Assembly (NCBI RefSeq): GCF_039645995.1
Contig: NZ_CP147920.1
Span: 62,001-126,000, forward strand
From: Sulfurimonas sp. HSL3-1
Lineage (GTDB): Bacteria > Campylobacterota > Campylobacteria > Campylobacterales > Sulfurimonadaceae
Direction: 5' to 3'
DNA: 64,000 nt
Of the stretch, positions 32,908-51,315 are shown one piece after another. The notes below the pieces were generated by a model. The model did no database searches. It was not told where the DNA came from and worked only from the letters and a program-made list of their open reading frames with translations. Made by a program: the position numbers and the translations under genes. Each line of letters begins with the position of its first letter. The stretch's first letter is position 1.

Positions 32908-35900
32908 ATGCTGAAAATCATCGAGTATTTTATTCGCAACAAACGGCTCAACTACGTGCTGTTGCTCTTCGTGCTTTTTATGGGCGTCAACGCCTACGTC
33001 TCCATCCCCAAGGAGCTCTTCCCGCTGGTGACCCTGGACCGGGTGACAATCAGCGGGGGGTATGCGGGGAGCAGCGCGGACAACCTCGACAAGATGGCCG
33101 TGCGCGATATCGAGGATGCGCTGGGCAGTATCGACGGCATCGAGAAGATCGAAACCGTCATCAAACCCGGCAGCTTCGCGATCGTCCTGACGCTGCAGGA
33201 GGGGGCGAATGAAAACGACGCGCTCAACAAGGCCAAAGACGCCATCGCCAAAAGCCGGCAGTACCTCCCGTCGGACATGGTCGAACCGGTGGCAACGCTG
33301 GCGGTGCACAACCGCCCCCTCGTCTCCCTCTCGCTCTCCAGCGATACGCTGACGCACGGGGAGCTGGTCGAGGCGGCCAAGGAGATCAAGACCCGTTTCG
33401 CCCGCTACCCGAACATCAGCGAAGTGGTGATGTACGGGGATTCGGACGAGGAGGTCTCCGTCCGCCTCGACTCGCAGGCGATCGAAGCCCTTGGGCTCAG
33501 CCGCAGCGCCGTGACGTCCGCCATTGCCAACCTTTCGTACATCTATCCCATCGGGAACATCGAACAGAAAGGGGACTTCGTCTTCCTCTCCACCGTCCAC
33601 GGCAAGTCTGACGTCGCGGCGTGGGAGACGACGATGCTCGGCGTCGGGGGCAAATACGTCCGTCTGGGGGAGATCGCCCGCATCGTGATCGAACACCCCC
33701 AGGATACGACGATCTCGACCTTCAACGGCCGCCCCAACATCACGCTCAATCTTTCCAAGGGGGACTACGGCAACGCCATATCCCTCTCCCGGGAGCTTGT
33801 GCATTTTGCGAAGACGATGCAGAGCGACTATCCGCAGATCCATTTTGACTTCTACCACGACACTTCCAAGCCGGTGCAGAGCCGCCTGGAGACGGTGCTC
33901 TCCAACCTGATGTTCGGGTTGATACTCGTTTTCCTCTCCATGGCGCTGCTGATCAACGTCCGCATCGCCTCCATCGTTGCGTTGGGGATCCCCTTTTCGT
34001 TCGCGATCGGCATCGTCTTCATCTATGTCCTGGGCTACTCCATCAACATCGTCTCCCTGCTCGGTGCGCTCATCGTGATCGGGATCGTCGTCGACGACGC
34101 CATCGTCGTCTCCGAGAACATCCAGCGCCACCTCAACGAGGGGATGGAGCGCCATGCCGCCGTGATGGCGGGGCTGCGGGAGATGATCCTGCCGGTGACC
34201 CTGGCGACGGTGACGACTGTTGTCGCCTTTTTGCCGCTCTTTATGCTCAGCGGGGAGATCTCCAAGTTCATCATCCTCATTCCCATCATGGTCATTATGA
34301 TCCTGATGGGCTCGCTGATCGAGAGCTTCCTCTTTTTGCCGCTGCATGCGGAGGAGGTGCTAAAGAAGCAGAAGAACATGGTCGACTGGACGCGTATCCA
34401 GAACGGCTATGAAACGATCCTGCACGGGCTGATCCGCTATAAAAAGAGCGTCCTCGCACTCTTCCTGGTCACGGTACCCCTGCTGACGTTCCTGACGGTC
34501 AAGAGCATGCAGTTCCAGTTCTTCCCGGAGTTTGACGGCTCGTTCCTGTATGTCACGGGTAAACTCGACATCAATACCCCGATCGAAGAGACAGCCGCCA
34601 TTGCGCAGGACGTCGAACGGCGCATCTTGGCGGAGGGGGAGCGTTTCTTCGCCAAGTCGGTGTCGACGGTGACGGGTTCGCGGGTCTCCATGGCCGGGGA
34701 TGCGGAAACCGGGGAACACGTCTTCCTCGTCACGATGGAGCTCTACGACATGGCGCCCAATAACGTTTTCGATCGTTACCTGGCCCCGCTGCTGAACTTC
34801 TCTTTTGATTACGACGACCCGGAGAAGCGGCGGACGAAACACACCTATGAACTCGTCGACGATCTCGAGGCGCTCGTCGCGCCGCTGCGGCAGCAGTATG
34901 CCTTCGAGGAGCTGGGCGTTCGGGAACAGCGGGCCGGGGTCGTGCGCATCGATGTCCAGGTCAACTTCTCCGGGGCGGACGAAGCGAAAACGGTCGCGGC
35001 GATGGAGCAGGTGCAGTCGGCGCTGGAGAAGGTCAAAGGGGTCGTCTCCGTCAGCAACAACCTCGAACCGGGGATGCGGGAGATCCGGCTGCGCGTCAAC
35101 GACTACGGCGAGCGGCTGGGGCTGAGCGAAGCGGAAGTGGCCCGCACCCTTTCGGCCTATTTCCTCGACAACCGCAGGGCGATGACTTTCAACGAGAGCG
35201 GAGTCATGGAGATCAAGACCCGTGCCCTGGAGAAGGACCGTCTGAGTACGCTGGAACGGTTCCAGTACCCCCTGGCCGACGGTACTTACGTCAATCTCGG
35301 CGATATTGTCGCTTTTGAGAGCCGCCGGGACTTCAACCAGATTGAAAAACGCGACGGCACGGTAGTGAAGACGGTCTTCGCGAAGGTCAACAAGCGGGTC
35401 ACGACCCCGTCGCAGGTCCTGAAGCAGATCGCTCCGGTACTGGACGCGGTACGTGAAACGGGGGTGAAGGCGGAACTGTTCGGGGAGCAGGAGCGCAACG
35501 ACCAGCTGGCATCGGATATGAAGCGTGCCGTTGCCGTCGCTCTCTTTTTGATGCTGATCACCCTGCTGTTCATCTTCCCGAAGATCAAGTACGCGCTTAT
35601 TGTCATGTCGGTGATTCCCCTCTCCATCCTCGGGGCGCTGGTGGGCCACAAGCTGATGGGGATGAACCTGACTATGCCGGGGGTCATCGGGCTGCTGGGA
35701 CTGGCCGGAGTCGTCATCAACGACGGGATCATCATGCTCGACTTCCTGCACGGCACCCACGATACGCGCGCGTTCTATGAGCGGGCGAAGATGCGCCTGC
35801 GGCCGATCCTGATCACCTCCATCACGACCTTCCTCGGCCTCTTTACGCTGATTTTCTATGCGACCGGGCAGGCCGTGATCCTGCAGCCGATTGCCGTCTC

Positions 35901-48908: not shown

Positions 48909-50495
48909 ATGGTTGATGTATTAGTAGTCGGCGGCGGCGGTGCGGGCATGGCGGCAGCACTCTCCGCCAAAGAGGCGGGGGCAACGGTGGCGGTGCTCGG
49001 CAAGAGTTACCCCACGCGGTCGCAGACCTGTATGGCGCAGGGGGGCATCAACGCGGCGCTGGGCCACACGGGCGAAGACAGCGTCGAGGCGCACATCGCC
49101 GACACGCTCAAGTCCGCCCAGGGACTGGCCGACGAGGCGGCCGTCGCGGCGCTCTGCAGCGAGGGGATCGAGGCGCTGCACTGGCTGGATGCGATCGGGG
49201 TGCCCTTCAGCCGTAACGACGATGCGCAGATCGCCCAGCGGCGTCTGGGCGGCGCCTCCGCTCCGCGGGCCTGTTATGCCCAGGACTACAGCGGACTGAA
49301 GATCCTGCATACGCTTTTTGACCAGTGCAACCGCGCGGGTATCCCCTTCTACAACGAACGCTTTCTGCTCGACATCATCGTGGAAGGCAATAGGGCCTGC
49401 GGCGTGAAGGTGCTCGATGTCCGCAGCGGCGAGGTCGAGGTGTACATGGCCGGGGCAGTGATCCTCGCGACCGGCGGCTACAGTAAGCTCTACGGCCGCC
49501 ACTCGACCAATGCCGCCGGCAGCAGCGGCGACGGCCATGCGGCGGCGCTGCGGGCCGGCGCGCGGCTTAGCGACATGGAGTTCGTGCAGTTCCACCCGAC
49601 GGGCCTGGCGGGCTCCTCCATCCTCATTTCCGAAAGTGCGCGCGGCGCGGGCGGTTACCTGCTCAACGGCAAAGGGGAGCGCTTTATTGACGAGTGCCTT
49701 CCCCGCGACCGTGTGGCGCGGGCCATCCACGACCAGATCATGGCGGGCGAGAGGGTCACCCTCGACATCCGCCACCTCGGGGAAGCGTTTATCGACGGTG
49801 AACTTCCCCAGGAGCGCAAGCTCGCGCAGCGCTACGAAGGGGTCGACCCGGTCACCGAACCCATTCCGATCAAGCCGGTCGCCCACTACACGATGGGGGG
49901 CATCGAGGTCAGTGCGGATTCGCAGACTGCTGTTGCGGGACTCTTCGCCGCGGGCGAATGCGCCAACCACCGTGTTCATGGCGCGAACCGTCTCGGCGGC
50001 AACTCCCTGCTGGAGCTGATCGTTTTCGGCCGTCAGGCGGGGGCGAATGCAGCCGCCGCAGCGCAGAGCGGCAACAGGGATGCACCGGCGGCTGCGGTGG
50101 AGGCCCCGGAGCTGGAAGCGTGCTTCAATGAGGCCCCGGAGGTCGATTTTTATACCCGCCGCGACAGCCTGGCGACGCTCTTTTACGAGCAGGTCGGCCT
50201 GGTGCGCAATGCCGAAGGTCTGCAGGGGGCCCTGGATGCGGTCAAGACGATGCAGGCGGAACTGCCGAAGATGGGCGTTGCGGACCGCAGCGGGGCCTAC
50301 AACACCAACCGGACGGATTTCCTGGAGTTCGTCAACCTGCTGACCGTGGCCGAAGCGGTGGCAGAGGGAGCGCTGCGCCGGGAAGAGAGCCGGGGGGCAC
50401 ACTTCCGCGGCGATTTCCCGGAAGCGGATGCCGCCCTGGCCGTGCATTCGCTCAGCTGCATCAAAGAGGAGGGACTATGTTTCGATTTCCAATGA
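48909..50495 (+). CDS. sdhA: SdhA/FrdA-like flavoprotein
   Basis: 528 aa, shorter than typical SdhA. The Rossmann motif is DVLVVGGGGAGMAAALSA. The flavin-attachment region reads TRSQTCMAQGGINAAL, with Gln where classical enzymes have the covalent-FAD His (RSHT). Catalytic residues appear in FVQFHPTGLAGSSILISE, the SARGAGGYLLNG loop (Arg) and PVAHYTMGGIEV (His). It should interconvert fumarate and succinate. AAAGGAGCGG precedes the ATG, and TATGAT near 48873 is a possible -10. Its stop overlaps the microprotein gene. Confidence 0.9.
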   Translation: MVDVLVVGGGGAGMAAALSAKEAGATVAVLGKSYPTRSQTCMAQGGINAALGHTGEDSVEAHIADTLKSAQGLADEAAVAALCSEGIEALHWLDAIGVPFSRNDDAQIAQRRLGGASAPRACYAQDYSGLKILHTLFDQCNRAGIPFYNERFLLDIIVEGNRACGVKVLDVRSGEVEVYMAGAVILATGGYSKLYGRHSTNAAGSSGDGHAAALRAGARLSDMEFVQFHPTGLAGSSILISESARGAGGYLLNGKGERFIDECLPRDRVARAIHDQIMAGERVTLDIRHLGEAFIDGELPQERKLAQRYEGVDPVTEPIPIKPVAHYTMGGIEVSADSQTAVAGLFAAGECANHRVHGANRLGGNSLLELIVFGRQAGANAAAAAQSGNRDAPAAAVEAPELEACFNEAPEVDFYTRRDSLATLFYEQVGLVRNAEGLQGALDAVKTMQAELPKMGVADRSGAYNTNRTDFLEFVNLLTVAEAVAEGALRREESRGAHFRGDFPEADAALAVHSLSCIKEEGLCFDFQ

Positions 50496-50617
50496 TCTGT
50501 TCGGATGATGTTGATGAGGATTTCCTCGAGGAGGAACCGGAGGAGTGGGAGGACGCCGTGTGCGAAGACCCCTACTGGGACGAAGAGGATGACAACGAAG
50601 TGGAGTGGTGCGACTGA
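50477..50617 (+). CDS. 46-residue hyperacidic microprotein between sdhA and sdhB
   Basis: Starts at ATG 50477 with GGAGGG 3 nt upstream, inside the last codons of sdhA in another frame, and its TGA (50615-50617) overlaps the sdhB ATG. The product opens MFRFPMICSDDVDEDF and ends NEVEWCD. I count 22 Asp/Glu, one Arg and three Cys in 46 residues, and no membrane segment. No family recognised. The strong ribosome binding site and double coupling argue for real translation in stoichiometric proximity to the flavoprotein and iron-sulfur subunits. Confidence 0.65.
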   Translation: MFRFPMICSDDVDEDFLEEEPEEWEDAVCEDPYWDEEDDNEVEWCD

Positions 50618-51315
50618 TGAAAATAGCGGTAAAAAGAGGTGACGAAACCGTCACCTATGACGTCGATTTCGATGGAACGCTGCTGGAGCTTCTCACCCAT
50701 ATCAAGACGCACGTCGACCCGACCCTGACCTTTGCCTCGGGCTGCCGCTCCAGCGTCTGCGGCAGCTGCGCCGTGCGGGTCAACGGCACCGAAGCCCTCG
50801 CCTGCAGCCACAAGCCTGCCGACGGCGATCTCATCGAACCGCTGCGCAATGCCGAGGTGCTCCGTGACCTCGTTGTCAATATGGACCGTCCTCTGGCGTT
50901 CAATGCCGGGGCGCAGGCCTGGATCGACCCGGTCAGCGGCGCGATCCGCATGGGGCACGCGGAGGAGAAGGCGAATGAGCTGCAAAGCGACTGTATCCTC
51001 TGCGGCTCCTGCTACAGCGCCTGCCCCGTCTACGCCGTCAAGCCGGATTTCGAGGGGCCGTTTGCCCTGACGCGCAGCTGGCGCTATGTCAGCGACGCCC
51101 GGACGGCGGATGTGCGCGGCAAGCTCGAGGCCGTCCAGCAAAACGGCATCTGGGACTGTACGCTCTGCAACGAGTGCGTCCCCGTCTGCCCCCAGGGGAT
51201 CGCCCCCAAGCAGGACATCAACATGCTGCGCTCCAAAAGCGGCATGGAGGGGTTCATGGACCCGAACATGATGGGCGGTTTCGGGGGCCTGGACTTCGGA
51301 GCGCCGAGTTTTTAA
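50617..51315 (+). CDS. sdhB: SdhB/FrdB-like iron-sulfur protein
   Basis: 232 aa. The N-terminal ferredoxin domain binds [2Fe-2S] via GCRSSVCGSCAVRVNG and a later Cys. The C-terminal domain has CILCGSCYSACPVY for [4Fe-4S] and CTLCNECVPVCPQG, whose four cysteines suggest a second [4Fe-4S] in place of the usual [3Fe-4S], as in type E enzymes. The C-terminus is Gly/Met-rich (MDPNMMGGFGGLDFG). The ATG overlaps the microprotein stop; a GTG 12 nt upstream is possible but weaker. No membrane anchor gene is adjacent. Confidence 0.92.
   Translation: MKIAVKRGDETVTYDVDFDGTLLELLTHIKTHVDPTLTFASGCRSSVCGSCAVRVNGTEALACSHKPADGDLIEPLRNAEVLRDLVVNMDRPLAFNAGAQAWIDPVSGAIRMGHAEEKANELQSDCILCGSCYSACPVYAVKPDFEGPFALTRSWRYVSDARTADVRGKLEAVQQNGIWDCTLCNECVPVCPQGIAPKQDINMLRSKSGMEGFMDPNMMGGFGGLDFGAPSF

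Follow-up and report, generated by a model that had tools for sequence, protein, structure and literature searches.

Between the sdhA and sdhB genes of Sulfurimonas sp. HSL3-1 lies a short, hyperacidic reading frame. This locus raises the question of whether the frame is a gene and, if so, what its product might do for the enzyme encoded on either side. To our knowledge, neither the electron donor nor the assembly of the two-subunit fumarate reductase has been settled in sulfur-oxidising Campylobacterota.

A hyperacidic frame at the sdhA-sdhB junction

The window analyzed here is the whole stretch of 64,000 nucleotides in which the two genes are found. On its plus strand, the frame runs from ATG to TGA at 50477..50617, and its 46-residue translation is MFRFPMICSDDVDEDFLEEEPEEWEDAVCEDPYWDEEDDNEVEWCD, followed by the stop. 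Asp and Glu account for 22 of the 46 residues, R3 is the sole basic residue, and Cys is present at positions 8, 29, and 45. A Shine-Dalgarno-like GGAGGG, read directly at 50468..50473 (plus strand), is placed within sdhA, 3 nt 5′ of the ATG. The ATG (50477) is also within sdhA, and the overlap between the two frames is 19 nt. At the other end, the TGA (50615-50617) and the sdhB ATG (50617) have one base in common. Thus, the preliminary description of this frame was borne out in all its details, from coordinates, length, and composition to the GGAGGG and the overlaps.

On the plus strand of the 64-kb window, no other 46-residue stretch with at least 22 acidic residues was found. On the minus strand, five overlapping 46-residue stretches near 34.0-34.1 kb likewise have 22 acidic residues, and a frame there (about 33970-34137) matches the microprotein in acidity (22 of 46 residues). 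Since this region is equally acidic, acidity by itself is no proof of a gene.

Conservation of the microprotein among relatives

The sdhA-sdhB junctions were gathered from about 90 loci. The gap contains a short acidic frame with the same end residues in several other genera of the family as well as in the window's genus, where six genomes have it (counting that of the window). With a 13-member profile, matches were obtained in 30 of 200 genomes of the window's family (5 of 18 genera; E-values down to 3e-21). The best matches were located directly 3′ of sdhA in all 30 genomes; sdhB then follows in 29 of them, and the contig ends too soon in the other. Only one second match was obtained with this profile, a fragment of 20 codons where a contig begins (G148). 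When a broader profile was used against 397 genomes of the phylum, matches appeared only in the window's family and in two genomes of a second family, whose microprotein is likewise encoded directly between sdhA and sdhB. A look into the same gap of relatives had been suggested in the preliminary description, and it is in this gap that the homologues of the 30 family genomes were found. Among the carriers is the cultured Sulfuricurvum kujiense DSM 16994 (genome G085); a plasmid search with its microprotein gave no match.

In relatives without the microprotein, sdhA and sdhB mostly abut or have unrelated sequence between them. One genome placed in the window's genus (L080, genome G002) has much more divergent SdhA and SdhB (about 50% identity) and a shortened SdhA tail, and the microprotein is absent. 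In another genome (L081, 553-1828; G053), about 1.28 kb without an acidic microprotein separates sdhA and sdhB. Four Nitratifractor-type genomes (L034, L036, L037, and L038) possess a gap of repeat-like sequence, 186-307 nt before sdhB; these gaps are mutually similar, give CATTCATCATTC-like translations, and lack the acidic frame. The locus L013 (391-516, reverse strand) retains the acidic frame but has none of the usual start codons for it, and a single TAG separates this frame from the sdhA end, with which it is in phase; this may reflect decay, an assembly error, or an unusual start.

Translational coupling at both ends had also been proposed. Such coupling is typical, but it is not universal: in some relatives the microprotein is retained although its start is separate or SdhB begins only after 12-135 nt. 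Three loci (L006 at 1386-1500, L055, and L065) have an extra 115-135 nt between the microprotein stop and the SdhB match. An ATG or GTG at the overlapping start is present in all relatives with such a start. Since 10 of the 13 relatives with this SdhA tail but without the microprotein have it as well, it was given little weight as independent evidence of start selection.

The microprotein outside the SdhA overlap was analyzed by the Nei-Gojobori method. Within the window's genus, dN/dS was about 0.1-0.2, and the shifted frames were without such a pattern. Pairs in other genera gave about 0.02-0.33; with a small number of sites and dS near saturation in some cases, individual ratios are rough. 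Within the family, the most constant part of the microprotein is its extreme C-terminus, also where the coupling to SdhB is gone. Here, E(R/K)E(W/Y)CD is near-constant, while its codons vary (TGC/TGT, GAC/GAT, and AGA/AGG/CGC/CGG); the W-C-D codons of the window are at 50606..50614 (plus strand). All aligned members of the family have the terminal Cys-Asp, and one (L010) adds a final Glu. The codon variation of the tail was observed also in members whose SdhB match starts 12, 19, 115, 124, or 135 nt further on. Even at a distance from SdhB, the tail is thus retained while its codons change synonymously, which points to selection on the peptide, not on a coupling signal alone.

These results bear on the possibility that the peptide is functionless and that the overlap signals alone matter. 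Most members do have the TGATG overlap with sdhB and the overlap with sdhA. However, the protein-level constraint, the conserved motifs, and the tail retained where coupling is gone are contrary to this explanation, and the region has neither unusual RNA folding (z -0.44) nor an Rfam family. A frame for coupling alone is largely refuted by the codon constraint and is hardly credible. On the same folding and Rfam results, an RNA element in the microprotein region was rejected. A chance frame is ruled out by the homologues, which occur only at the sdhA-sdhB junction, together with the codon constraint. Neither a broken frame nor missing codon constraint, which the preliminary description had named as grounds against its proposal, was found wherever the microprotein gene is present. 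Judged from these comparisons, the microprotein is almost certainly a genuine, selectively maintained protein, and its function is very probably tied to this SdhAB.

In the unrooted SdhA plus SdhB tree (69 loci), microprotein presence needs seven changes, compared with 23 when the labels are shuffled; such counts on an unrooted tree do not by themselves tell gain from loss. The microprotein was found in early branches of the family, in nested genera, and in the second family. Thus, the simplest reading is an old gene that was lost several times. Such losses would mean that the microprotein is accessory and not obligatory.

The preliminary description knew of no described counterpart, and the searches of Pfam, NCBIfam, PDB, and the literature brought up none. 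The Pfam search with 28 members (E up to 5) gave weak coiled-coil or chance matches only, the NCBIfam and PDB profile searches gave no real match, and the literature searches yielded no description of the microprotein.

The accompanying SdhA and SdhB

The sdhA gene (48909..50495, plus strand) encodes a flavoprotein subunit of 528 residues with matches to PF00890 (E 2.9e-100) and PF02910 (E 5e-24). Its TIGR01812 score of 551 bits is just short of the cut-off of 567. In the alignment to 1nek chain A, the covalent-FAD His of E. coli SdhA is replaced by Gln39 (49023..49025, plus strand), and Gln occupies this place in the SdhA of every relative readable there. The active-site residues His229, Arg266, His326, and Arg361 are kept. 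The FAD of this SdhA is predicted to be non-covalent. The sdhB gene (50617..51315, plus strand) encodes an iron-sulfur subunit of 232 residues from its ATG, with a TIGR00384 score of 164 bits (cut-off 88) and twelve conserved Cys. No gene for a membrane subunit or anchor was found beside sdhB; the next frame is a different gene. An SdhA and an SdhB without an adjoining membrane subunit and with the catalytic residues present are the features of a two-subunit soluble fumarate reductase, and the partner of the microprotein is probably such an enzyme.

Dedicated assembly factors were searched for in 60 relatives. PF03937 (SdhE / Sdh5) was absent from all of them, with E. coli and Caulobacter as responding controls, and PF07896 (SDHAF4) was likewise absent, with Caulobacter as the responding control. 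The Gln in place of His, together with the absence of SdhE and SDHAF4, argues against a role in flavinylation and points to the cytoplasmic fumarate reductase with two subunits that serves the reductive TCA cycle. Covalent flavinylation had been among the roles first proposed for the microprotein; with Gln at the FAD-His place and Sdh5/SdhE missing, it is effectively excluded. The microprotein resembles SdhE (SDHAF2, Sdh5) as a small SdhA accessory protein, but it has no match to the PF03937 profile, and SdhE promotes covalent flavinylation, for which this SdhA lacks the usual His.

A passage of PMC4674564 describes a similar two-subunit copy and, citing Sievert et al. 2008, the proposal that it is located in the cytoplasm and belongs to the reductive TCA cycle. 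The microprotein would accompany this enzyme of autotrophic Campylobacterota, whereas that passage of PMC4674564 contains no mention of a small third gene. The 8-methylmenaquinol:fumarate reductase (MfrABE/SdhABE) of the same phylum has related flavoprotein and iron-sulfur subunits. However, the scores here are far under the cut-offs (NF042982, 422 of 1100 bits; NF042952, 126 of 600 bits), and no Cys-rich SdhE-type membrane subunit is encoded downstream.

The third-cluster motif of SdhB is CTLCNEC (residues 181-187; 51157..51177, plus strand), with an additional Cys at 184 that all relatives read have in common. In general, such a Cys favours a [4Fe-4S] third cluster, which is more sensitive to oxygen, instead of the usual [3Fe-4S]. 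The motif suggests that this cluster differs in type from that of classical complex II. A stable third subunit or lid might cap the third cluster, which would be exposed at the place of the membrane anchor in classical complex II, and insulate it from oxygen or tune donor access. The missing anchor gene, the additional Cys with the more oxygen-sensitive cluster that it would favour, and a tight gene order suggesting similar product amounts agree with such a subunit. Nevertheless, the twelve Cys are also found in many relatives that have no microprotein, and an AlphaFold2 model of a microprotein-SdhB fusion (G019) gave a well-formed SdhB, a microprotein pLDDT of mostly 38-61, and no ordered contact. 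We regard the third subunit as somewhat unlikely.

Another possibility is a peptide that would use its Cys and acidic residues to take up iron or a cluster for transfer to SdhB. The internal CCED motif and the near-terminal Cys are present in most members, carboxylates are many, and the gene is directly 5′ of sdhB. The (C)CED codons of the window (C29-E30-D31, 50561..50569, plus strand) are at least 90% conserved among 28 members, including the second-family form. However, the number of Cys varies: the window's protein has a single Cys in this motif (CED), L025 lacks the motif, and in the second-family form the Cys-Asp end is absent. That form (L072 and L074) retains GGNCCED, but its N-terminal part is exchanged for a helix-rich stretch predicted to be coiled-coil-like. 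No match to known Fe-S carriers was obtained in Pfam or PDB. A metal or iron-sulfur handling peptide is quite unlikely. Fe-S delivery, as proposed in the preliminary description, is weakened, since the C-terminal Cys alone is constant within the family.

Proposed role in assembly

Tentatively, and at somewhat short of even confidence, we propose that the microprotein is an assembly, holding, or protective factor for SdhA/SdhB. The reasons are the location of every match, in all genomes that have one, at sdhA-sdhB and nowhere else, the dN/dS range of about 0.02-0.33, the C-terminus that stays constant even where SdhB coupling is gone, the absence of SdhE and SDHAF4 from the 60 relatives, the kept active-site residues with a predicted non-covalent FAD, and the precedent of SDHAF4 combined with a microprotein that AlphaFold2 leaves unstructured.

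Mitochondrial SDHAF4 is disordered and inserts its C-terminal Asp-Phe, which is strictly conserved in its homologues, into the SDHA active site; the Asp acts as a dicarboxylate mimic, and FAD is kept from solvent exposure during assembly (PMC10784507). Like SDHAF4 / Sdh8 (DUF1674, PF07896), the microprotein is small, of the disordered type, and most strongly conserved at an extreme C-terminus that includes Asp, and it is tied to a complex II flavoprotein, as SDHAF4 is (PMC10784507). In contrast, the PF07896 profile is matched neither by the window microprotein nor, among the families listed at E up to 5, by the 28 members, the family microproteins end in Cys-Asp and not Asp-Phe, and the microprotein is hyperacidic, is encoded between sdhA and sdhB, and has a partner SdhA without the covalent-FAD His. 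The likeness would be one of working in a similar way, an analogy and not homology.

In the proposed mechanism, the microprotein would be made between SdhA and SdhB off the same message and would be largely unstructured when alone. Its constant C-terminal tail might bind SdhA soon after synthesis, or the interface of SdhA with SdhB, and so shield the non-covalently held flavin and the regions that bind the clusters while the heterodimer is still being put together. The step that is most speculative concerns the C-terminal Asp, which resembles succinate through its side chain together with the end carboxylate; it would occupy the SdhA dicarboxylate site, much like the penultimate Asp of SDHAF4 in the case of SDHA. 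Such a succinate mimic is unlikely. Equally doubtful is the full reading, in which an undescribed co-translated family would both chaperone the assembly of the reductive-TCA fumarate reductase and plug its active site, with the C-terminal Asp as succinate mimic; this family would be a convergent counterpart of SDHAF4 for a complex II enzyme that lacks covalent flavin.

An AlphaFold2 model of an SdhA-microprotein fusion (G030) gave a well-formed SdhA, a microprotein pLDDT of about 30, and no ordered contact. In G030, a single TAA separates sdhA from the microprotein, and both are read in the same phase; read-through of this stop was a test device and makes no claim about the organism. The low pLDDT over the microprotein is consistent with disorder. 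Against the assembly role, no docking was seen in either fusion, although the SdhA fusion is a weak test because its microprotein part had no related alignment rows; microprotein rows had been placed wrongly, within SdhA, and were omitted. Furthermore, SdhA (net charge -22) and SdhB (-9) are themselves acidic; charge would be no help to binding, and charge complementarity with either subunit was rejected. The second-family form without the Cys-Asp end, the added Glu of L010, and the many enzyme relatives without any microprotein also count against it.

The same C-terminal chemistry and the intact SdhA active site would suit a regulator of the finished enzyme, in which the acidic tail is a reversible inhibitor of the dicarboxylate site and fits fumarate reduction to the demand of carbon fixation. 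However, if inhibitor and enzyme are made together, some signal would have to release the inhibitor, and no such signal is known; nor was docking seen in the SdhA fusion, with the limit on its alignment given above. This regulator is very unlikely. Between assembly and inhibition, both named in the preliminary description, assembly or holding is tentatively favoured.

The microprotein gene would be a conserved accessory gene added to the two-subunit fumarate reductase that has been proposed for carbon fixation in sulfur-oxidising Campylobacterota. Since S. kujiense is a cultured carrier, the assembly of a complex II relative without covalent FAD, SdhE, or SDHAF4 would be directly testable.
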